From a virus, in IMG/VR virus record IMGVR_UViG_3300017969_000139, positions 1-24,571 of that record: DNA of 24,571 nt, one strand, 5' to 3'. The position numbers and the translations under genes are program-made. Every line of letters begins with the position of its first letter. The first letter of the stretch is position 1. This document shows, one piece after another, positions 2,447-17,400 of this stretch. The notes beneath the pieces are model-generated. The model ran no database searches. It saw nothing but the letters and a program-made list of their open reading frames with translations, and was not told the DNA's origin.

Positions 2447-4594
2447 TTAAGTTAAAACTGTCCAACCTTTAGAGGTTGCGATTGCTAAAGTGTCTGGGTG
2501 GAGGTGATATACCCCATAATTATATCTTATATCGAGAGTTTGCCCGGTAACTCCGCTGGCTAGATTATTGATTATATCTGTAAGATTACCACTACCAAGG
2601 TAATTATCATAAAACCCTATACTAGTATTAATTGTCGGTATGTTAACAGTATTTAAGCTAAAGCAATGGTTAAACATTGCCGAAGAATCTGTGGCAGATG
2701 ATAAATCATACGAAACGCTTTCTAAAGATTGGCATCTTTCAAACATTTGCCGCAAACCATACTCGCTATTTATAATAGCTGGTGGTTTTTTCAAACTTTG
2801 ACAATTATTAAAAATTCTGCTATTATTGGTACTTGTATTGGTAATTCCAGAGATGGTATAGTGAGAAGCATCTATCAGATGCAAACATGCGCTAAACATA
2901 GACGGACAATAATACGGCGTTGAGTCATAACCCTCAAAAAATCCAGAGGGCGCCGTTCTTAAATTCCAACAGTTATTAAACATGCTACTAGTGTTAGGTT
3001 TATTTTGAACATTTTTAAACGAAACGTCGGTAAGAGCATAATTAGTATTAAACATACTTGTGGTATCAGTACAATTAGAAAGATCAAAAGTTTGGTATTT
3101 TTTAACAGATTGACTGTTATTGAACATACTTCTACAACCAGTCGCACTACTGGTGTCCATTTCTGGATAAGATGTAATTGCGTAATTGTACGCAAAAGCC
3201 TCAGTGAAATTTATACCCGAAGACGTTTCTTGTTTTGAATTGTCCCATATAAATTCTTCCATATTGATGCAACCACGAACGAAACTACTAAAATTTGTTA
3301 TAGGACCAAGCTTTTTAATGTGTATTTGTTTTATACTATGGGTGGCCCAAAACATATTAGTCACATTGGATAGGCTAGGGCAATCAATTTCAATTTTAGA
3401 TCTCAAAGACTGACACCAATAAAACATATCTTGAGTATTTGTTAGATTGGGCGCTACTAGTTTAGGGACAGCTTTTAAGTTGTAACAATATTGAAACGTG
3501 TATCTACATCCAGTAGCATTAAGAAAACTAAAGCCAGACGGAAGAGATGTTAATTGGTGATTGTAACTAAATGTGGCGTAAAAATCTTTACCGTTAGAAA
3601 AATCTAAATTAGGAATTTCTTTTAGAGATAAGCATCTATGAAAAGTCCCGTAGAAACTTGTAACGTTAGAAAAATCGTATTCTGGTACTTCTTGTAAAGA
3701 GTGTGCGCCAGAAAACAGATCTCTCACGCCTGTAGCGCTTGAGGTATCAAAAAATGGCGGATTTTTTAGCGAATAAGCGCCCCAAAACATTTTTTCAAAA
3801 TCAGAAACACCCGCCGTAGCGCCGCTTGGAAATTCAACATGTCTTAAATCGGGAAGTAGGTGGAATTTATACCTTGGGGTAAAAGCTCCAACATTAGCAA
3901 TAATCCGTTGGCAATTTTTATGACGACCAAGTTGGTAGGACGAGCTAGTAATAGTAAAGTCATCAATATTAGCGCCGCTAGCTACTACATCTAATACCGT
4001 AGAAGATTGATTGTTAAGATGATGTTGAAATCTTATATTATCAGAAGATTCATTTCCATACTCGTCAGTGTAATAATCACCTTTTCCGTAGTCATGGGTA
4101 TCTCCAAAGTATGCACCCGCCATTCTTTCCAAAGAGAAGAATGTAATACCACTAATACTTCCGTCAAGCTGAATAATAACTTGCCTTGCTAAAAATCCGT
4201 TAATTTCAATCTGACTACTTTCCGGCAGTAAATCAAAATCATATTTTTTATGTTGGGTGCCAAAATTTCCAAAATAATTTATATTGTCGGTTCTTGTTCC
4301 TTGAAAAATGCCAGAATGTCCATCGCCCCAGTCAATTGGTATGTAGGTCGGACAGTTATTGTAAACGCCATTTCTAGCAAACAGTCCAACGCCAAAATCT
4401 TTAGCGCCACTTGGAACGTACAAGAGGACTGCAACACCCTCACTAACATTGGGCATATCAAGCCAACCGCTTGGTCTAATCCAATCGCCCGTTGATATTT
4501 CTGGACTAAAATCAACTCGACCTATATTGTCATCATACGGCTCTATGACCGATATCTTCCCGACGTTGCCGTTTCCGAATTTTAATACTGCCAT
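2447..4594 (-). CDS. BspA/DUF285-type leucine-rich-repeat adhesin, paralogue C
   Basis: This 715-residue protein is the third of three tandem paralogues. The N-terminus (LKFGNGNVGKISVIEPYDD) is shared with its neighbours, followed by RPSGWLDMP and a PKD-like strand with DWGDG. From roughly residue 260 to 650 it is a long array of about 23-residue BspA-type (DUF285) repeats of the form MF--C-SL--IP--D-S. Examples are MFWGAYSLKNPP, MFYWCQSLRS, MFNNCWNLRTAPSG and MFERCQSLESV. The conserved C-terminal cap has GVTGQTLDI and HPDTLAIATSKGWTVLT. BspA-type repeats are known from bacterial and protozoan surface proteins that mediate adhesion; a receptor-binding role here is inferred. AAGGT lies just upstream of the ATG. 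No signal peptide, consistent with a virion protein. Confidence 0.85.
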   Translation of the reverse strand: MAVLKFGNGNVGKISVIEPYDDNIGRVDFSPEISTGDWIRPSGWLDMPNVSEGVAVLLYVPSGAKDFGVGLFARNGVYNNCPTYIPIDWGDGHSGIFQGTRTDNINYFGNFGTQHKKYDFDLLPESSQIEINGFLARQVIIQLDGSISGITFFSLERMAGAYFGDTHDYGKGDYYTDEYGNESSDNIRFQHHLNNQSSTVLDVVASGANIDDFTITSSSYQLGRHKNCQRIIANVGAFTPRYKFHLLPDLRHVEFPSGATAGVSDFEKMFWGAYSLKNPPFFDTSSATGVRDLFSGAHSLQEVPEYDFSNVTSFYGTFHRCLSLKEIPNLDFSNGKDFYATFSYNHQLTSLPSGFSFLNATGCRYTFQYCYNLKAVPKLVAPNLTNTQDMFYWCQSLRSKIEIDCPSLSNVTNMFWATHSIKQIHIKKLGPITNFSSFVRGCINMEEFIWDNSKQETSSGINFTEAFAYNYAITSYPEMDTSSATGCRSMFNNSQSVKKYQTFDLSNCTDTTSMFNTNYALTDVSFKNVQNKPNTSSMFNNCWNLRTAPSGFFEGYDSTPYYCPSMFSACLHLIDASHYTISGITNTSTNNSRIFNNCQSLKKPPAIINSEYGLRQMFERCQSLESVSYDLSSATDSSAMFNHCFSLNTVNIPTINTSIGFYDNYLGSGNLTDIINNLASGVTGQTLDIRYNYGVYHLHPDTLAIATSKGWTVLT

Positions 4595-4603
4595 TTGTAT
4601 ACC

Positions 4604-6700
4604 TTATGTTAAGACGGTCCAACCCTTTGAGGTTGCTATTGAAAGTTGGTCACTAGACAAAGCATAAACACCCGGAACTTGTCTTAAATCAATTGTTTGA
4701 CCAGCAACGCCACTAGCAAGCCCATTTATCACATCCAGAGTTGCGCCACTTGCCATAGGACATCTATAATAACCTATAGATTTACTTACGCCCGACAAAG
4801 CTCCAACCTCAAGCGCAGTCGCATAGTTGAACATGGCGCTACAAGAATCTATATTAGAAGCGTCTGCGTATGGTATTGAAACTAAATTACCGTTTGAATA
4901 AAACATACTATCTAACTTGGCGCCAGATGGTATTGTTAGAGATTTAATTCTAAAAGGAGTTCTGCCGTAATTCCAGTTTGAAAACCAATTAGTGCTTCCG
5001 GGGTTGTTGGAAGTTATACAGCTAGAGAAATCAACATCTATCTCCCCAGAAGCATTTAGATTAGAAAAGAAATCTTGACAGGCATAAAAATTAGACAGGT
5101 CAGATACAGGGAATTTTTTTAACGCAGAGCAACTTCTAAAGGCTCTAACCGCCCTTGTTAAAGATGTTGCTTCAGTAGCAAAATTTGACTCTCCAATATC
5201 TTCTAAAGATGTACATGCATCAAACATATAATCCATATTTGTAGCATGGGGAGCATTTATTCCACCAATCCTTTTTAGACTTGTACAGCTGGATACAAAT
5301 CCATGCGTATTTATAACTCCTGATAAATCAATGTATGGTAATTGTTCTAGGGAATTACAGACAGAAAACATGCCTTGAACGCCCTGTACAGCAGTGGTGT
5401 AAATACTACTATTTAATAAGTTTACTTTTCTTAATGAAAAACAACTATTAAACAGGTTCTCGTATCTTATACTGTTATCATTTGGGTTGCTCAAGTCTAA
5501 ATTTATTTCTTCTATTGATCTACAGCTATGAAAAGCACTTCTAGCGGAAGTGCAATTTGTAGGTATTACGTCTGGTATTTTTTTTAAGGAATAACAATTG
5601 TAAAATAGATAGTTTAAACTTTGAATACCACTTAATTCAAAATCTGGAGTATAAACAAGGCTGTTGCAGTCTTGGAACATAGAGGGAGCATACCAGACGT
5701 TTGAAAGATCCCAGTTTCCGGTTATTTTTTTTAAGTTTCTACATGTCTGAAACATGCTCTCACATCTAGTAAGAGTTGAAGGTATATCAAAATGTATCTC
5801 TTCAAAAGAAGATGCGAAGAACGTGTATTGACAGCCCGTCAAACTACCAAAATTATAAAGACCCGATGGAAGTGTTTTAATATTTTTCATCTTATGAAAC
5901 ATGTATTTTGCGTCTAACGCATTTGAAACATCAATCGTGGGTAATTCTTTTAGGCCGCACCGACCAAACATAAAGTTAACACCTGTTAAATTTGGCATAA
6001 CTCCGCTATAAATATCTAATTCTTCAAGGTTCCAACTGCCATCAAACAGTGCATTGAATTGGTTTGCGTTTGGCGCATAAACTCTAGCTTTTTTAAGAAG
6101 GTGCATATCTTGAGTAAAACCATTATAATGACTAGCTGTTACACCTATAGCATTTGGTAAATTTATATCAAACTCTAGTATATTTTGCTTTGGATAATTC
6201 CTAGAATATGAGCCGTGATATTTTTTATATTTAAAATCAAAGTCATAAATACCACTATTGGCCTCAACAACTATCATTGCCTGTCTGTATCTTATTCCAT
6301 TGTCAGTAAATTCTGTCGATTCCGACAGTGAAGAAAATTCAAATTCATGTTCTATTGGCATAGCTGGTATACCGCCAGATTGATTCACGTAGTCAACATT
6401 TCCATCACCCCAGTTTATAGAGCAGTCAGTTAGATAATTGTTGTTAGATAATCTTTCTCCATATGCTTTAATTGCAAAATATCTTAAAAGAGAGTCGTCT
6501 CCATATTGATCACCACTAGGTACGGCAAATAGAAATGCACACTTATCTTCGCCACTATTTATAACGGGCATATCAAGCCAATGGGAGGGCCTTGTCCACG
6601 GAGTTATTGGCGTGGGTGTGTCATCAACATACACGTCCTCATACGGCTCTATAACCGCAATCTTCCCGATAGTCGTATTTCCTACTTTTAAATTTGCCAT
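4604..6700 (-). CDS. BspA/DUF285-type leucine-rich-repeat adhesin, paralogue B
   Basis: This 698-residue protein is the second tandem paralogue. It shares the start LKVGNTTIGKIAVIEPYED, the RPSHWLDMP motif, the NWGDG strand, the 'RQAMIVVEANSG' strand and the C-terminal cap (GVAGQTIDL, then ATSKGWTVLT). The middle (about residues 220-640) is an array of BspA-type repeats such as MFQTCRNLKKI, MFQDCNSLVYTP, LFYNCYSLKKIP, MFSVCNSLEQLP and MFDACTSLEDI. These are clearly diverged from the arrays of the flanking genes. The gene begins nine bases after the previous stop with only a weak GGT ribosome binding site and ends nine bases before the next gene. An adhesin role is inferred from the repeat family and the fibre-operon context. 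Confidence 0.85.
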   Translation of the reverse strand: MANLKVGNTTIGKIAVIEPYEDVYVDDTPTPITPWTRPSHWLDMPVINSGEDKCAFLFAVPSGDQYGDDSLLRYFAIKAYGERLSNNNYLTDCSINWGDGNVDYVNQSGGIPAMPIEHEFEFSSLSESTEFTDNGIRYRQAMIVVEANSGIYDFDFKYKKYHGSYSRNYPKQNILEFDINLPNAIGVTASHYNGFTQDMHLLKKARVYAPNANQFNALFDGSWNLEELDIYSGVMPNLTGVNFMFGRCGLKELPTIDVSNALDAKYMFHKMKNIKTLPSGLYNFGSLTGCQYTFFASSFEEIHFDIPSTLTRCESMFQTCRNLKKITGNWDLSNVWYAPSMFQDCNSLVYTPDFELSGIQSLNYLFYNCYSLKKIPDVIPTNCTSARSAFHSCRSIEEINLDLSNPNDNSIRYENLFNSCFSLRKVNLLNSSIYTTAVQGVQGMFSVCNSLEQLPYIDLSGVINTHGFVSSCTSLKRIGGINAPHATNMDYMFDACTSLEDIGESNFATEATSLTRAVRAFRSCSALKKFPVSDLSNFYACQDFFSNLNASGEIDVDFSSCITSNNPGSTNWFSNWNYGRTPFRIKSLTIPSGAKLDSMFYSNGNLVSIPYADASNIDSCSAMFNYATALEVGALSGVSKSIGYYRCPMASGATLDVINGLASGVAGQTIDLRQVPGVYALSSDQLSIATSKGWTVLT

Positions 6701-6709
6701 TATTTGTAC

Positions 6710-8785
6710 CTATGTAGTAACAGTCCAGCCTTTTGAAGTTGCGATAGCGATGGTGTCGGGGTGGAGATTATTAACACCTTCGCACCGGTAGATATCTATG
6801 TTTTGACCCGTAACACCGCTTGCCAAGTTCTCAAACACTTCAGTTATTGCGCCGCTAGGTAAACCACACTCTCTAAAGGAAGTGCTGACACGTAATCCGT
6901 AAATCTGACACCTTCTTAAATGTCTACAGGTTTTAAATGTATTGGTAAATAAATCACAGTCGGAAACGTCCGTTGGTGGAAAACTATGTAATCTAGTGCC
7001 TTCAAAAGTGTCAATAGAATTAGGGCCAAATATAACATCTCCAGTATATTCTACGGTTGTAGGCATCCAGTCATTATTATGAGTAACCATATTGTCAATT
7101 CCAGATAAGTTAAGGTCTGGAACTGAAGTAAATCTTGGACCACTTGCAAACATCCATCTAATATAAGAAGGGCATGAATTATAGTCTTTAAAAAAACCGG
7201 ATGGGAACTCGATTAAATTTTCACAATATCTGAACATTTCTGTTGAGCTAGTTAGTCTTGAACCAAACTCAAAACCGCCAACCTTTTCAAGATTCGTACA
7301 ACCCTGAAACATGTAAGCGACATCGGTAGCATTTGTCAGTGTTAATTTAGGAATGTATTTTAATCTTTTATTACCCTGAAAAGCGTTCCTAAAATTTACA
7401 CCGCTTGAGTAATTTATGTTGGGTACTCTAGCAAGATTAGCAGAAGAAAACGCATTAGTAAAGTTATCAGCTATTATTTCTGGATTTTCAAACCTAACGC
7501 TTCTTAATTGAGAAGATGCATGTACAAGCCTAGAAAGTGTTGTTGCTTTAGATAAATCTCCAAAACGAAGATGTTTCAATGACCTACAGCCCTGAAACAT
7601 TCCGGTGGGATTAACGCAGTTTGGTAGATCAACCTTGGGGACATATCTTAAATTATAACATTCATCAAACATCAAGTATGTATGGGTAGCGCCAGAGAAA
7701 TCGAAATCAGGAGGTATGCTCACTAGGTTATGAGAGTACCTAAACATTTGATTGCAATTTCCGAGTGATGATATGTTAAATGTGCCAGAAGGAATGGATA
7801 TTAACGATTCCATCCCAGCGCACATACTGTTAAAATATATACCGTTTGAATAATCAAAATTTGGAATTTCCTCAAGAGATGAGCAACTACTATAAAAAGA
7901 ATTAAAATGTGTATTGTTACTAAAGTCATAATTTGGTATTGTCTTTAAGGAACGACAAGCCCAAAAAAAATTATCAGCCTGCGTGATAGAAGATGTATCG
8001 AAGTAGGGAACCTCTTTTAGCATCGTGCAACCATAAAACATTTGCTGGGCATTGGCATTAGTCAATGTTATATCTGGATTAATTTCCAATTTTCTCAAAT
8101 TTTGGGATGAGTTAAAATGCCTATAAGGACTAATACCGCTAACCTCATATCTTATATGCTCTAAATCAAGATGAAAACTACCTCCACCACCTGTAAGGTT
8201 AATATCTTTTACTCTGCGGCCAACAACCTCTAGGTCTACCATCCTACTACTTCTGTAGTATGCAAAATTATTAAATCCCGCACTTCCGTTTAATGCGTGT
8301 AGATAAAGCGTTTCTAGGCCACTAACAGAGCCGTCGATTTGAAAAAGCGCCTGTCTACATTTTCTACCTTTGTAAGTTATCTCGCTACTAACTGGTAAGC
8401 TGTCGAAACTGTAAGTATGAGTCTCCCAAGTAAAATAATTTACATTTCCGGCCTCATTTGGTCTAGATCCACTCTGTACAACTACAGTTCCATCACCCCA
8501 ATCTATAGTATTATAGGTTGGATAAACATTATGGGAGACATACGGCCCTCTAGTATAAAGCGCAACCTGTTGGTCAATACCGCTCTCAACCATAATTAGC
8601 CCAGCCACCTTCTCGTCGCCAGCGCCAGAACTCATAACTGGCATGTCTAGCCATTCTGAAGGTCTAACCCAATCATCTAAATGTTTATCGTAAGTTGGCT
8701 TTATGATATCTGGCTCAACACTTTCGTATGGCTCTACGAGAGAAATAGAGTTAATTTCAGAATTTCCTAATTTAAATACACCCAT
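6710..8785 (-). CDS. BspA/DUF285-type leucine-rich-repeat adhesin, paralogue A
   Basis: This 691-residue protein is the first of three tandem paralogues. It has the common N-terminal segment (VFKLGNSEINSISLVEPYE), RPSEWLDMP, a DWGDGTVVV strand typical of PKD-like beta-sandwiches, and the C-terminal cap HPDTIAIATSKGWTVTT. BspA-type repeats fill roughly residues 230-640: MFYGCTMLKEVP, MFDECYNLRYVP, MFQGCRSLKHL, MFQGCTNLEKV, MFRYCENLIEFPSG. I chose the ATG at 8783-8785 because its A is the last base of the upstream TAA (TAATG overlap); the in-frame TTG five codons earlier has no support. There is no clear ribosome binding site, so translation probably depends on coupling to the upstream fibre gene. 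Receptor unknown. Confidence 0.85.
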   Translation of the reverse strand: MGVFKLGNSEINSISLVEPYESVEPDIIKPTYDKHLDDWVRPSEWLDMPVMSSGAGDEKVAGLIMVESGIDQQVALYTRGPYVSHNVYPTYNTIDWGDGTVVVQSGSRPNEAGNVNYFTWETHTYSFDSLPVSSEITYKGRKCRQALFQIDGSVSGLETLYLHALNGSAGFNNFAYYRSSRMVDLEVVGRRVKDINLTGGGGSFHLDLEHIRYEVSGISPYRHFNSSQNLRKLEINPDITLTNANAQQMFYGCTMLKEVPYFDTSSITQADNFFWACRSLKTIPNYDFSNNTHFNSFYSSCSSLEEIPNFDYSNGIYFNSMCAGMESLISIPSGTFNISSLGNCNQMFRYSHNLVSIPPDFDFSGATHTYLMFDECYNLRYVPKVDLPNCVNPTGMFQGCRSLKHLRFGDLSKATTLSRLVHASSQLRSVRFENPEIIADNFTNAFSSANLARVPNINYSSGVNFRNAFQGNKRLKYIPKLTLTNATDVAYMFQGCTNLEKVGGFEFGSRLTSSTEMFRYCENLIEFPSGFFKDYNSCPSYIRWMFASGPRFTSVPDLNLSGIDNMVTHNNDWMPTTVEYTGDVIFGPNSIDTFEGTRLHSFPPTDVSDCDLFTNTFKTCRHLRRCQIYGLRVSTSFRECGLPSGAITEVFENLASGVTGQNIDIYRCEGVNNLHPDTIAIATSKGWTVTT

Positions 8786-11700
8786 TATAAGATAATCCAA
8801 TTAGAGTTAGTTGATTGTAGTGTTATAGATTGGTATTGTGTACTCAATGAGAATGAGGTTTGACCGTCTATAGTTTCCCCACCAACACCACTAACTATTA
8901 CGGTGTTAGCACTGATATTCTTTATATTATACACGATTCCGCCGTTGCCAACCGCAGAGGGAAGTGTCAAATTTAAACCGGCTGTAGCATGTATTGTATA
9001 GTCTGTGGTTAATATTGCTGAGTCTGCACTGACTGTCCTAATTGGCTGAACGACTGGCCCTTCGATATCTGGATCGGTAATGATGTAGAACGTGGCGGCG
9101 TCTGGTATTATAAGGTCATATTCTGCCTGTGTAAGCTGTTTAATGTGATATATTTCATCACTAGTAATTACGCGTTTTCCGCTGGCGATTATATTACCAC
9201 TTAACGATACGTCTACACCGTCATAAATAAATGTATTGTTACCGCTAACCGAGCCTTGGTCATTAAAGAAATTAATTCCACTAGGAGTGCCGGTTGGAAT
9301 CAAGCCAGACACAGTATCAATTTCAGTCTCTAGATTATTTGTTATTGTATTAAAATAACCAGATACAGAGGGAGCGTCTGTAATAATATAAAAGGTTGCA
9401 GAATCAGGTGTGATCGCATCGTACTCTGCTTGTGTTATTTGTTCTATGTGATAAATATCATCACTCGTAATAACGCGCTTACCACTAGCCGTAATATTTC
9501 CACTCAGCGTGATGTCTGAGCCATCATAAATCATGGTGTTATTGCCGGTTAGACTTCCATCATCGGCAAAGAATGTTAATCCGCTTGGAAGCCCTGTTGG
9601 AGTAAGACCAGAAACCGTTAATATATCCAAGTCGGCTTGATCTGCCCTAGACTCAAAATAGCCCGATATTGACGTGTCTCTTGAGTCAAAATACCCGGAG
9701 ATTTGAGTATCGCGAGCCTCAAAGTATCCTGAGATAGCCGCATCTTCGTTGGCATCAGTAATAATATAAAATGTAGATGCGTCAGGAGTTATTAAGTCGT
9801 ACTCAGCTTGTGTAATATGTTCGATATGTTTTACGGCATCGCTGGTGACAACATGTTTTCCGCTTGCAGTAATATTACCACTAAGAGATATGTCTGAACC
9901 ATCGTATATTAATGTATTATTACCGGTTAAACTAGCGTCGTCCGCAAAGAACGTCATGCCGCTTGGTATGCCGGTTGGAGTCAAGCCAGACACCGTAATT
10001 ATGTCTGAGTTTAATTGGTCAGATGTAGATTGAAAGTATCCCGAATTAGCTAGAATATCAAGATCGGCGGAATCAACTCTAGACTCAAAGTACCCAGAAA
10101 TAGATATGTCTCTAGTTTCAAAATATCCAGAAAGCGCTGCATCTTGAGTTGTAAGATAACCAGATAGCGAAGGTGCGTCTGTAATAATATAGAAAGTAGC
10201 TGAGTCTGGAGTTATAGCGTCATACTCTGCTTGGGTTATTTGCTCAATATGGTATATATCATCGCTAGTTATAACTCTTTTACCACTAGCCATGATGTTG
10301 CCGCTAAGTACTACATCATTTCCATCATATATAAAATTGCTACTGCTATCGAGATCGCCGTCATTAGCAAAGAAAGTGATACCACTAGGAATACCTGTTG
10401 GCGTCAAGCCAGAAACCGTTATGATATCTGAGTTTAGCTGATCTGATGTAGATTGAAAATACCCCGAATTAGCTAGAATTTCAGAATCAGCAGAGTCAAC
10501 CCTAGATTCAAAATAGCCGGAAATAGATAAATCTTTACTATCAGAATATCCAGACACAGCAGTTATGAAAGAATCATTATCGTCTATGCTACTTTGCAAG
10601 TTACCGCTAGTAGTTGAAATTAACGTTGTTAAAGTATTCGCTACGTTAGCGTCATCGTTTAGTGCGGCTGCTATTTCATTGAGTGTATCAAGAGTCGAAG
10701 GCGCTCCATCTACAATCATAGCATAAACATCCCCGCTAATAGAGGATATATCTACGTCAAAAGTACCGCCAGCGTTATTCGTATATGTTAATATACCACC
10801 GCCATATGATAAACTAACACCGCTAGTGTCAAAAGTAGATAAGCTAGATAAGTCAGCAGTAAAGCTACCGCCATAGCTATTATTGTATGTTAGTATATTA
10901 TTTGTGAAGTCAAAATTTTCACCGCTAGGAGTAAGCAGTCCTGAGACGGTATATACATCGTCATCTATAGAATCAGCTCTATTCTCGAAATGTCCAGAAT
11001 TTGCTAGAATCTCAGAGTCAGCAGAATCAGCTCTAGATTCAAAGTAACCCGAATTAGCTAAAATGTCAGCGTCTGTAGAATCAGCTCTATTCTCGAAGTA
11101 TCCAGAATTAGCTAGAATTTCGGAATCGGCAGAATCAACCCTAGACTCGAAATACCCAGAAGTATTTATTAAAAGATCATAATTATCTTCTATGGAACTA
11201 TTGAGCGCACCAGATACGGCATTTAGCTCAGATATAGTCTCATTTATACTACCTTGCAGGCTGCCGCTAGCTTGGGTTATATAACTATCCGCCCAGCCAC
11301 TAAGTGAACTATCTTGTGTATCTATGTAGCTCCTAGCCCATCCACTAACCTCTGTAGCGGAATGGTCTAAACTATCTATGTACGACTGAAAATAACCGCT
11401 GTTGGTTACTATATTTTCAGTATTTTGATCTATTAATGATCCGCTAGCATACGGTAAAGCGGCTGTAGTCTGAAGGGTTGTATCAGCAAATCTAATAACG
11501 TCGAACGTACCGCTATGGGCAATAACATTACCATCTACATCAAAGTCATCATTCTCATCTAGATAAGCAGTTTTATCAGCAGGTATAACACAAAACACTG
11601 TGCTAATACCTACTAAGTTTATAAGATTATCTGAATTGGAACTTTGAAGGATGGTGTCTCTACTGAGGGAGTTATCACTCGCTCTATATGTACCAATACC

Positions 11701-11870: not shown

Positions 11871-12890
11871 CTATTCCCTTTTGAGTAGGTATTTTGCCTC
11901 ATTTACAAAAGATTGAAACAGAATTTCGTCAAGCGAATTTTCTTCAACAAAGTGTTTTCTAACCTCGTGTAAAGGATAATTTATTTCAGTAAGTCCTAAA
12001 ATATAATTCCTTAGTTTAGTTATATAGTCTACTGGGTAGTGAACGCCGTTTACCTTTTGGAATCTATGCATCCACTTCATAAATGGTAAAGAGTATACTT
12101 TTCTGTCTTGCGATCTATATTTTTCTGCTATGTATCCCTCTTCTCCGCCAAAACCTAATGCAAATTTATTATATCCCAACCAGCTCTCTTTTCTAGTTAA
12201 GAAACACCCTGTAGCTTGACCCCATATCTCATATGGTGTATCTGAATCTACGTTTAATAGGCGTTTAGCGCCAGTTCCTACTAATGGAATGTCTTCATCT
12301 TGTTTAAGTGACATTCCGCAACTTTGACATTCGCGTATTACCTTTTGTTCTACCGCCGATCTATAATTTCTGTCTTTGTCTACAAAAAAGTAAAAGTCCT
12401 TACAGGCACAAACAAATGCGCCAACCCATTTACCCCACATGCCATTATCCCAAGTTTTTTCAAAAAAATCAAATTGCAGCTGACAATTGTCGGCTATCAT
12501 TGGTCCATAGAACAAATCATCCGACTCAGGGTTATCATTTATAAAGTCTAATATCTTTTCTAGTGTCTGAACAACTGGGCAAAGTAAAATATGACAATCT
12601 AAAACAAGAACAAATTCAGAGTCTGCTAGTTCTATTAACCTATCTTTTACAGCGCCCGACCCCTGTTTATTGAAAATATCAAACTTTATTGGCGCAAGAT
12701 CCCTAGAAGCAAATTCTTTTAAAAGTTTAGAGTGTTCGGAGCCACTACTATTATCAACTAACACAAACTCTATTTGCTCAAGTAGGTCTTGTCTTTTGTT
12801 AAAAATTAATTCTTTTCTTATGTCCTGAATAGTGAAATAAGCGCCATCGAAATCGTGATGGTGAGGTATAGCTATTGAGAGCTTTTTCAT
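11871..12890 (-). CDS. GT-A fold glycosyltransferase, polypeptide-GalNAc-transferase-like
   Basis: This 339-residue protein starts MKKLSIAIPHHHDFDGAY, a typical GT-A opening, and has VLVDNSSG around residue 46 for nucleotide-sugar binding. VLVLDCHILL carries a DxH metal motif (D98, H100). FGGEEGYIAEKY (about 247-258) and KWMHRF (H275) follow. DxH plus a 'GGE' motif plus a later metal-binding His is the arrangement known in polypeptide GalNAc-transferases (GT27), so transfer of a sugar to protein is a reasonable inference. The donor and acceptor are not shown. I chose ATG 12888-12890 with AGGAG eight bases upstream; earlier in-frame codons overlap the preceding gene and lack the family start. 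Cys pairs (CAC, CQSC) at about 161-191 are unusual. It sits among fibre genes. Confidence 0.8.
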   Translation of the reverse strand: MKKLSIAIPHHHDFDGAYFTIQDIRKELIFNKRQDLLEQIEFVLVDNSSGSEHSKLLKEFASRDLAPIKFDIFNKQGSGAVKDRLIELADSEFVLVLDCHILLCPVVQTLEKILDFINDNPESDDLFYGPMIADNCQLQFDFFEKTWDNGMWGKWVGAFVCACKDFYFFVDKDRNYRSAVEQKVIRECQSCGMSLKQDEDIPLVGTGAKRLLNVDSDTPYEIWGQATGCFLTRKESWLGYNKFALGFGGEEGYIAEKYRSQDRKVYSLPFMKWMHRFQKVNGVHYPVDYITKLRNYILGLTEINYPLHEVRKHFVEENSLDEILFQSFVNEAKYLLKRE

Positions 12891-12912
12891 TCCTAAATCT
12901 CCTGTCTTACTC

Positions 12913-14406
12913 TTAAGGTTCTTCTGGGTCTGGTCTAGTCCAGTTAAATTTATCATAACAATGATCTAAAATAAAGTCGCAACTTATGCCACTAAAAATA
13001 GCGCCATTGCAGGTTTCTAGTTCATAATCTATTTCCGTGCAGCTGCCACCACCCTGAAGGTCTGATTCACAGCAAGCGCCAGATCCAACTTCGCATGGGT
13101 CATCAAAACAACTTATGTATGTACCATTACCTCGACGGCGACTTTCTGTAAAAGTAGAATTAACTCCATATACTTCATCGCAAGCCGCCGCATCAATTGT
13201 ATACGCACAGTCTCCAAGCTTAGCGTTTGGAGGGCAGCAAATTCCTACCTCTGGCGGAGGCGTGGTACACCACGGATTATCACAATCAGGACCACTATAA
13301 TATCGCACGGCAGTGAGTTTATCGTTGTGATACATTTGATATACTGGGAAACTCGACCTCTTGTAACATCCCGGATCAGTGAGAGCGTATGTGCCAGACT
13401 CAATAGGTTCTGAAGTATCATTTGAGCAATATATCTCGTAATCAATCTCAATAGGGTAGTTGCTACAATTTGAATCAACACATGCTTCCGTGCAAAAAGT
13501 ATCTGTAACAATACAATTATGAAAAACTAAACTATCTGCGTAAAACTCGTGATAATCTTTTAAGTGTAGGTCATACAGTTGAGTTTCGTATTTATCTTGT
13601 TTAAGGGAAATGCTTTGAACTGTTTCAAACCCATACTCATTGATCACTACATCTCCGATGTTTAAATCACCAAGAATGTTAACGTAACTTCCATAGTTAT
13701 TTCTTGAAAGTTCTGAGTTTACCGCCTTAAAGCCCTGAGTAGTTTTAATTGGGTGGTCTTCTGTGAAGAAATAGTCACCGCTATTTAGCGAAACGAGTTT
13801 TCTGTCACCTAGTATTGGTCTAATTAGTTCAAGGATGGTGGTATTACCACTGGGCGTCTCAACCTCATCTCCAATTTGTATGTCTTCTATATTTTTATAA
13901 CCGTTGGGTATTTTAATCTTAGTGCCAGAGACAAAACATGTGATTGGTGGCGTGCAACACGAATTTATACGATGTTCATATTCATCGCACCCCCCGTTTG
14001 TTGCTACCCATGTAGCGCAATCAAAACAGCTGTCTCGACTAGGATAGTAATACAAATAATTATTGTCTGGATTATCCCCATATATTGTCGGATAATACCA
14101 CTGTCCAGAGGGTGTGAGGATTCCAACATTCTCGCCTAGCTCTTTAGAACATTGAATTTGACCATTAAATTGACCTCCTACTTCGTCGCATATGTCAGCC
14201 CAAACATTATCTCCACATAGAGAAAAGTTATGTCTCTTCGTGTATGAAAAATTGCACGGTTCCGCCCCGTCAACAGTATAAACATCAAAAGCTGAAAAAC
14301 AACATGAACCACTGTAACATGGAGGTGGAGTACAACATGTCCAAGCCTGATCGCAATCGTCACAGGTTTCGTTATTTCGCATATAATAACACTTGGGTCT
14401 TCCCAT
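12913..14406 (-). CDS. Cys-rich virion protein interrupted by a Hint (mini-intein-like) domain
   Basis: This 497-residue, strongly Cys-rich protein has repeated motifs such as CCTPPPCYSGSCC, CCTPPITC, CTTPPPEVGICC and GSGACC. The C-terminal half resembles tandem Cys-rich repeats seen in bacterial extracellular proteins. Residues 157-297 form a complete Hint domain (annotated separately); without it a 356-residue product would remain. I chose the ATG at 14404-14406, which shares its A with the TAA stop of the giant fibre gene (TAATG), over an in-frame TTG at 14427 that overlaps that gene. AGGA lies about 11 bases upstream, so coupling is likely. The stop is 22 bases before the glycosyltransferase start. 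Extracellular or virion-surface location and disulfide bonding are inferred from Cys content and context; there is no signal peptide. Confidence 0.78.
   Translation of the reverse strand: MGRPKCYYMRNNETCDDCDQAWTCCTPPPCYSGSCCFSAFDVYTVDGAEPCNFSYTKRHNFSLCGDNVWADICDEVGGQFNGQIQCSKELGENVGILTPSGQWYYPTIYGDNPDNNYLYYYPSRDSCFDCATWVATNGGCDEYEHRINSCCTPPITCFVSGTKIKIPNGYKNIEDIQIGDEVETPSGNTTILELIRPILGDRKLVSLNSGDYFFTEDHPIKTTQGFKAVNSELSRNNYGSYVNILGDLNIGDVVINEYGFETVQSISLKQDKYETQLYDLHLKDYHEFYADSLVFHNCIVTDTFCTEACVDSNCSNYPIEIDYEIYCSNDTSEPIESGTYALTDPGCYKRSSFPVYQMYHNDKLTAVRYYSGPDCDNPWCTTPPPEVGICCPPNAKLGDCAYTIDAAACDEVYGVNSTFTESRRRGNGTYISCFDDPCEVGSGACCESDLQGGGSCTEIDYELETCNGAIFSGISCDFILDHCYDKFNWTRPDPEEP
13516..13938 (-). 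other. Hint / intein-like self-splicing domain (141 residues)
   Basis: All residues of a class 1 intein are visible. The first residue is Cys in CFVSGTKIKI (block A). FTEDHPIKTTQGF carries the TxxH block B motif. QLYDLHLKDYHEFYADSL matches block F. The domain ends VFHN directly followed by Cys (+1), which is block G. With only 141 residues there is no room for a homing endonuclease. The flanks are CCTPPIT before and CIVTDTFC after. It could be a mini-intein or a bacterial-intein-like (BIL) A-type domain; splicing or cleavage is predicted, not shown. Confidence 0.85.
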
Positions 14407-17400
14407 TAGTCTGCACATCCTGAACAAGAGATGTAAATTGGTCTATATTCGCCATTTATATATGTAGCAACAACGAAATCTCCACCACTGATGGCTAGAG
14501 ATGGGTCTCTGTTTATAAGGGGGACATTGTAATCATACTGAAGATTATTATCTCTAACCAATAGCCAACCAGAGCTACCAGTCATATAGGTTACTGGATT
14601 AGGGATATTGTATTGGGCTTCACCGTGAGTACCGGCTAACCCACTAGCAAACCCCTCTAGCATTGGAGGAGGCGAGTAGCCATAGCCAGTATTGACTCTA
14701 GCGTAAGCTCCGCCAAACACCAAAGATCCTGAATGAGAAGATTCTCTCGCAGTTAATAAAGAATCGTCATTATAATGATGATTTAATGATAAGTAACCGC
14801 CTGAATTTATAATAGTATTTGGTTGGAATGTAGAGTCACCACTATCTGCAACTAATTGTCCAGACTTTTTAGGCAGGTCGCTTGTAGAAAATGTATAATT
14901 GTCATGAGTTAGAATAACTTTGTCAAAACTTGCAAAGCCGTCTGTTTGTATTTTGTTATCCGATATAGTTAAGCCAGACCCAAGTTTAGATTGTATTGTA
15001 AACTTATTATCTGTACTGTTATATCCTACATCAATACCGCTAACACCACTTACGTATACGGTCTCATTAGGCGCTATAGTGTCAGTAGCGGTTAGTCCGT
15101 TTGAAACACCAAACGAAAATTGAGTAGAAGTTGGGAAAGTTACAGTAACAGAACCATCAAAGTTGTTACTAACACTACCATTGGGAAATTTAATCTCACC
15201 GACAGGTGAAACTGAAGGGTTGCTATCTACCTCGCTAACCCTTAGCTGTAAGTCTGTGTGGTCTTGAGAATCAACATAATCTTTAGCCCAGCCGCTGACA
15301 GCAGATCCGCTAGCGTCAATTGCGTGTTGAAGAACACCACTAAGACCGTCTGCATTTACAACAAAGTTGTTTGTATTTAAAGTTACATCAACCCCTTTCT
15401 CTCCACTGATAAATACATCGTCTGTGTTGTTTACAGTTAGGAATGGCGACTTGCCATCCGACATATCAAAACTGTAAGACGACCCACCGGCAGAATTGGT
15501 TACTGTAACTTCTCCGTTTCCATTGTCCGTGACGGTACCATTAGAAAAGTTTATAATCTGAACGTTTGATATAGATGGAGACCCATCAGATTCTCTGACT
15601 GTTAACGATGAAGATCCAGTACCAAAGGTTGCAGCAGCCCAGCCACTAATCGCAGAGCCGCTACCATCAATATACGATTTAAGCCAAGCTCCACTGGCGT
15701 CAATCGTTGATTGCGCCCAACCACTTACCGCAGAGCCGCTAGCATCAATTAACCCATGAAGAACACCGCTAAGTCCATCTGCGGTTACAACAAAATTGTT
15801 ACTATTAAGATTAACTTCAACACCTTTATCGCCACTAACAAAAATCGAATCACCGTTATTTATTGTTAATGCTGTCGATAAACCATCAGAAATATCAAAA
15901 GAAAGTGAGCTAGAAGAAAGTCCATTTACCGTTTCTGCAAGGGTGTTGATACCACTAAGAATACCACTGCCCGATCTAAGATGCCATAAATCTCCATCCC
16001 CACTACAGCTTATACCCCAGAAAACATCGTCATTGCAGACCCAAGTCTGTATGAATCCAGACGGTGTTTCTTCATGAGCTTGAATATTACTATCTTTTCT
16101 AACAGACAGAGGCGCCTCTGGAGAAAGCACTGCGTCTCCAATGGATATTTTTTGATCACTAGTGTCGCCAGCTATAACGTTCTGTATATTTAATTTATTA
16201 CTTACATCTCTACCGTAAAGAATCCTCTGGTTATCATCAAGACCGGTAATAATTTCAATATTATTTTGACCAAACTCTTCGACATTATTTTGTCCGCGTA
16301 AAGAATTGTTGCCGAGACCAAGCGAGTTTGAGAAATTACTATTTAATCCAGCATTTTGCCCAATGAACACAGAGTCAGATGCTCCACTTGCCCAAAAGCC
16401 AGCGTTGTTGCCTATAAATAATCCATTTTCTAAATTATCAGCATTGAAACCCGCTCTGTAACCTATAAATACAGATGCTGTATCAATTGCAAGGTCTGGG
16501 TTTGGTGTTCTGGCGTAAGCTCCGGCTTGAGTGCCAATCATTACGGTGTTTCGCCAGCCGGTGGCGTGTATACCAACATCGCAACCAATAAAGACACTGC
16601 CTGAGTTTAACTGTTCTTGTATTAATGGTGTATTATTTGCGATCATGATATTGCAATTTTCTACAACCATAGACGGAGTAGGAATACCTGAAGATATGTA
16701 ATCACCCAGTGTGTCTATAGATATTTTAGATATAATGTTTTCAACACCGCTCTCTATTTCTATTGGTAAGAACGAATTATGTCTATCTAGCAATCCCGTT
16801 TCAATAACATCAAATAAATCTGTGAAATCTAAATGTAACCTACCAGAACCAGCGCTTTCGTTATATTCGTATCTAACTCCGGTTCCGCCCTCGCTAATTA
16901 TACCGCTAGAAGATTCTAGAGAATACCCGTCAGCAAATCTGATAGCACCTCTTAGTAGTAAATCTCCATCTAACTTAGCGTAAGGACGAGCTGTCGCGGG
17001 AAGATCGTAATCTGGAGAGTTAGTCATAGGATCAGCTTGGTGATCTAAATGTAATAGCAATCTAGAATCACCATCGCCGTCTATGAAATTAAACGCTATA
17101 AAGCTATCAACTCTATCATTATTTGAATTATCAATTAAATTGATATCAGCTATTGATCTACCGCCGCTAGTGCTATGGTTAATTTCTAATACATCATTGT
17201 CAAAATCATCATGAGATATTTTTAAATAGCTATCTTTAATGTAAACAAAGCCGTTGTCAACTTGGAATTCATTAGCATTGATATAAACCCGTTTGTCACT
17301 CCCAGTTAAACCAGATATCGTTGGTATTCCAACACCAATCTGTAGTAGATAATCTCCGGTCTGAGTTACAAGACTTGTCCCTATGGATATATTGTGATTG

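Follow-up and report, generated by a model that had tools for sequence, protein, structure and literature searches.

In this study, we describe a Hint (intein/BIL-type) domain of 141 residues that interrupts a cysteine-rich phage protein, and our reading of its residues and relatives is that it probably splices itself out in cis by the class 1 route, which would leave a protein of 356 amino acids. The host is unusual for a mini-intein-type element, and the novelty of the domain lies in its position inside a clade of phage Hint domains with Lys or Arg at the residue following the domain (+1). Its identity as a Hint domain is far above chance, and it is kept by purifying selection inside a fast-changing protein. 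The first-pass annotation, made from the letters of this DNA, had proposed a splicing-competent-looking mini-intein-type Hint in a variable Cys-rich virion protein. This proposal holds apart from the virion location, which is suggested by gene neighbourhood; the Lys/Arg +1 phage clade, the derived look of Cys+1 and of Asp at block F position 4 (F:4), and the purifying selection on the domain go beyond it.

A Hint domain within a cysteine-rich phage protein

The window, meaning the whole stretch of DNA analysed, is a phage fragment taken from IMG/VR and spans 24.6 kb; its minus strand carries genes of head and tail type, and it is from this neighbourhood that we infer a virion location for the Cys-rich protein. 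The ATG of the Cys-rich gene (14404-14406) overlaps the stop of the upstream gene of 1836 amino acids (TAATG). Two IMG/VR contigs (L001 and L002), about 90% identical to the window, bear the same Hint-containing gene; at this identity, the window and its carriers are counted as one case and one pair of lineages. The features are as follows:

12913 to 14406, minus strand: Cys-rich gene that hosts the Hint domain; the precursor read from the ATG has 497 aa, and the open reading frame reaches a TTG at 14427
13939 to 14406, minus strand: N-extein, 156 aa, 17 Cys, C-terminal SCCTPPIT; 83% identical in L001/L002
13516 to 13938, minus strand: Hint (intein/BIL-type) domain, 141 aa, without endonuclease; from Pfam, PDB sequence profile, AlphaFold2 and VIA-align
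13936 to 13938, minus strand: Cys1, N-terminal nucleophile; 46/46 in the phage family alignment
13753 to 13764, minus strand: block B TEDH (Thr59 and His62; Hint residues 59-62); Thr and His 46/46 in the family
13570 to 13572, minus strand: Asp123, F:4; the residue usual in inteins, with Asn in 40/46 rows of the family
13516 to 13521, minus strand: His140-Asn141, block G, Asn cyclisation; 46/46 in the family
13513 to 13515, minus strand: Cys+1, acceptor nucleophile; most relatives have Lys or Arg here
12913 to 13515, minus strand: C-extein, 200 aa, 20 Cys; all 20 Cys conserved in the related virus

In translation, the Hint domain occupies residues 157-297 of the 497-residue protein, starting with CFVSGTK and ending with VFHN ahead of CIVTDTFC. 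The annotation had placed it directly after CCTPPIT, with which the translation agrees, and had given 356 residues as the spliced length, which is what a 497-residue precursor leaves once a 141-residue domain is removed. The exteins contain 37 Cys in 356 residues (about 10%), bearing out the "Cys-rich" part of the earlier description, and Cys1 is the sole Cys of the Hint domain. The AlphaFold2 model of the whole precursor, built with a two-sequence alignment, has a pLDDT of 29, and no extein fold was read from it.

The annotation had described a mini-intein-type domain without endonuclease at 13516-13938 and had suggested profile comparison with intein, BIL and Hint families. These comparisons confirmed the domain, with 141 residues and a predicted Hint fold, and recovered Pfam Hint_2, BIL2, BIL and gp41-1. 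The match to Hint_2 (E=1.9e-6) lies above the family cut-off and is accompanied by weaker matches to Vint, PT-HINT and Intein_splicing. Searched against the PDB as a single sequence, the domain found the gp41-1 intein at 3e-4; with a profile of 46 relatives, it found Tetrahymena BIL2 (6e-19), the C. thermocellum BIL (7e-18) and the gp41-1 intein (6e-12). An AlphaFold2 model of the domain from the 46-relative alignment (pLDDT 92.3, pTM 0.86) was ranked by VIA-align closest to BIL2 (6y75; Z 19.1, 2.1 A, 141 residues), followed by the BIL 2lwy (Z 17.0) and the gp41-1 intein (Z 16.5), with both splice junctions within the aligned range of the predicted fold. The bacterial intein-like domains (BILs) to which the annotation had compared the domain are both its closest folds and its closest kin.

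Cys1, TxxH, the penultimate His, the final Asn and Cys+1 are each where the annotation had put them. Together with Asp at F:4, the residue most common there in inteins (PMC4031507), and a predicted Hint fold free of endonuclease, they are the residues and the fold of a class 1 mini-intein, as in gp41-1 (PDB 6qaz/6riz), which shares Cys1, TxxH, Asp F:4, His-Asn, a +1 nucleophile, the absence of an endonuclease and the fold (Z 16.4-16.5 over 124 residues). Unlike class 1 mini-inteins, the window domain sits in a variable Cys-rich phage protein and not in a DNA-metabolism enzyme, descends within the Lys/Arg +1 clade and has no known empty site. With type A BILs, such as that of C. thermocellum (2lwy, Z 17.0), it shares the fold, the His-Asn C-terminus and a variable, non-conserved host protein, and it differs from them in having a +1 nucleophile and in having Asp, not Asn, at F:4. 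It also differs from class 3 inteins, since F:4 is Asp123 and not Cys and the Cys1 nucleophile is present. Tetrahymena BUBL1 BIL2 (6y75/6tmm) is the best match in both fold and profile; BIL2 serves to dispense a ubiquitin-like domain by way of an isopeptide bond (PMC8616854), whereas the window domain is flanked on both sides by Cys-rich segments of a phage protein and is followed by Cys+1.

Phage relatives and descent

Alignment searches returned some 200 phage stretches, and we read the best 80. Among these best 80, an HMM tabulation of the +1 residue gave Lys in 58, Arg in 15, Cys in 3 and few others. After sequences more than 75% identical had been dropped, Lys or Arg stood at +1 in 43 of 52 phage domains (from the same best 80 of about 200), compared with 13 of 47 Hint domains from bacterial and archaeal genomes (Fisher p 3e-8). 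In either set, the catalytic residues (Cys1, Thr, His, His and Asn) hardly vary, in counts for which the selection of full-length domains favours the end motifs. Position F:4 is mostly Asn, and of the aligned phage domains the window pair alone has Asp there. The nearest members of the clade, which includes domains from L003, L004, L032, L035, L044 and L126, are 38-42% identical to the window Hint. The window domain shares with this clade all the catalytic residues and differs from it in having Asp at F:4, where most members have Asn, and Cys at +1, where they have Lys or Arg.

In a tree of 99 rows, the window pair falls inside a supported set (99/97) of 34 rows, among them 31 phage domains with Lys/Arg and one MAG, and a second tree of 69 rows supports the same grouping (96/94). 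A single clade of the six +1-nucleophile rows tested was rejected (p-AU 0.0004). Grouping the window pair with one long-branch ribonucleotide reductase intein was not rejected (p 0.39), and since the window pair is itself on a long branch, its exact sister is unsure. Within the clade, Cys+1 combined with Asp F:4 occurs in the window and its near twin only, Cys+1 being present in the window protein and in L001/L002. Read most simply, the trees have Cys+1 and Asp F:4 arising within the Lys/Arg +1 group, a direction of change that would take a BIL-like ancestor without a +1 nucleophile to a class-1-type mini-intein.

In the literature that we searched, which took in few subscription journals, no description of the Lys/Arg +1 phage Hint clade was found. 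When isolated phages were searched for this clade, most hits were to annotated terminases, helicases or recombinases, alongside some uncharacterised proteins. Elsewhere, the Lys/Arg +1 phage Hints are often found beside glycine- or proline-rich linkers (L003, L004, L032, L035, L050, L060, L089 and others), and their host proteins are often large and of structural type. One open reading frame (L044:3536-6712) holds seven Hint domains, the last six forming a head-to-tail array with a period of 163 residues and a single Lys between units (HN-K-CFIAG), the final Hint being only partly matched; splicing of every Hint would leave a poly-Lys stretch. In eight others (L077, L082, L084, L089, L091, L096, L101 and L103), the open reading frame stops exactly one Lys past the Hint (VHNK-stop), and several of these have a second Hint just upstream that ends in HN-F, HN-R or HN-L. 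Tandem Hints ending in HNKG are also found in large phage contigs (L009:6001-6843 and L010:6001-6834), in frames that are open only if TAG encodes an amino acid.

Proposed splicing and its alternatives

We favour class 1 cis-splicing because the window domain has both intein features, Cys+1 and Asp F:4. By this route, Cys1 would accept the N-extein as a thioester, aided by Thr59 and His62, and the N-extein would be transferred to Cys+1, aided by Asp123. Cyclisation at His140-Asn141 would then free the domain, and the junction would turn into a peptide bond (..CCTPPIT-CIVTDTFC..). Splicing would presumably take place in the reducing cytoplasm of the host, ahead of Cys pairing in the exteins. 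By descent, this is not a typical homing intein, as it comes from a BIL-like phage clade with Lys or Arg at +1. There is a precedent in a BIL with Tyr+1, which spliced once this residue was Cys (PMC4031507). The same protein holds a second CCTPP-C motif, CCTPPPCYSGSCC (CCTPPPC); the CCTPPIT-Cys joint would therefore rebuild a motif that the protein already uses, which we count in favour of splicing, and the likeness would fit an insertion directly ahead of a Cys already in the module.

Several points are counted against splicing. Cys+1 may simply be an extein Cys, and on its own it is weak evidence, because in exteins with about 10% Cys it would be expected by chance about one time in ten. The closest kin have no +1 nucleophile, and type A BILs yield mainly cleavage products (PMC4031507). 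Finally, residue -1 of the Hint is Thr, which can slow the first splicing step. The search for empty sites gave no Hint-free extein homologue in IMG/VR (single proteins and two-sequence alignments) or in isolated phages (tblastn), so that the joined product is without empty-site support; the extein searches returned only the two carriers, both with a near-identical Hint. One further candidate (L024) was rejected as an extein homologue, as it shares just the short stretch SCCFSAFDV within an unrelated-looking open reading frame.

The main rival to cis-splicing, to which we give a minor share of belief, is an action like that of type A BILs, in which thioester formation and Asn cyclisation would be largely uncoupled and would give cleavage products with little ligation, Cys+1 being incidental. 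Maturation of the precursor would then yield two chains rich in Cys, which disulfides might hold together. The closest solved folds and the sequence kin are indeed BIL-like, the host is variable and non-conserved as described for BILs (PMC7765530), the residues for both of these reactions hardly vary across the clade despite Lys or Arg at +1, and the high Cys content of the exteins is as this rival would have it. However, BILs are by definition without a +1 nucleophile (PMC4031507), whereas one is present here, as is an Asp at F:4 that is otherwise absent from the clade.

It is also conceivable, if improbable, that the Cys1 thioester is passed to a nucleophile of another molecule, so that the N-extein would become covalently linked to another virion protein or surface, the Lys+1 relatives doing something similar intramolecularly, by way of the Lys side chain. 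Tetrahymena BIL2, the best fold match, is reported to form isopeptide bonds to Lys side chains (PMC8616854), and the strong enrichment of Lys or Arg at +1 among the phage relatives points the same way; but the window protein has Cys and not Lys at this position, no partner is known, and Arg+1, found in 9 of the 52 relatives, is incapable of Lys chemistry.

We would tentatively suggest, without holding it to be likely, that tailed phages have a dedicated Hint family in structural-type proteins, in which the conserved +1 Lys (in some, Arg) contributes to ligation or processing. It might do so with its side chain, as Tetrahymena BIL2 does, and on this view the window branch regained splicing through Cys+1 and Asp F:4. 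The tree suggests a BIL-like phage domain acquiring splicing residues and, if this is true, natural neighbours would offer a direct test of how BIL cleavage relates to intein splicing. New ligases or protein tools could also come from such a phage Hint family, with its conserved +1 Lys or Arg.

Selection on the domain and its host protein

Between the window and the related virus, the Hint protein is 98.6% identical, and 6 of 423 bases differ, 4 of them synonymously. Its dN/dS is 0.13 (2 nonsynonymous changes in 335 sites), in the range of the three neighbour genes (0.08-0.17). For the same pair, dN/dS is 0.43 in the N-extein and 2.31 in the C-extein, where 78.5 nonsynonymous changes stand against 9.5 synonymous ones and 20 of 20 Cys are kept. 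The domain is therefore maintained while its host protein diverges. The annotation had called this host variable, a view upheld by the C-extein ratio and by extein relatives that are limited to two contigs. That the Hint is an inactive structural insert, with the 497-residue chain as the mature protein, is very improbable given how little the Hint sequence and its catalytic residues change in a protein that otherwise evolves fast.

The 98.6% identity of the Hint, against 72-84% in the exteins, raised the question of a recent transfer; purifying selection fits better, because the synonymous rate of the Hint (0.047) resembles that of the next gene (0.053) and is near that of the C-extein (0.081). 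The high ratio of the C-extein (window 12913-13515), with all its Cys kept, suggests diversifying selection on the Cys-rich protein, and recombination with an unseen source could be another cause of the raised ratio. Adenine mutagenesis of the C-extein by a diversity-generating retroelement was rejected, as all substitution types occur, many without adenine. Elsewhere in the window, a glycosyltransferase-2-like gene (11871-12956; Pfam just below the cut-off) overlaps the end of the Cys-rich gene, and three long, similar open reading frames of about 700 amino acids (2447-8800) resemble, by eye, BspA-type leucine-rich repeat proteins.
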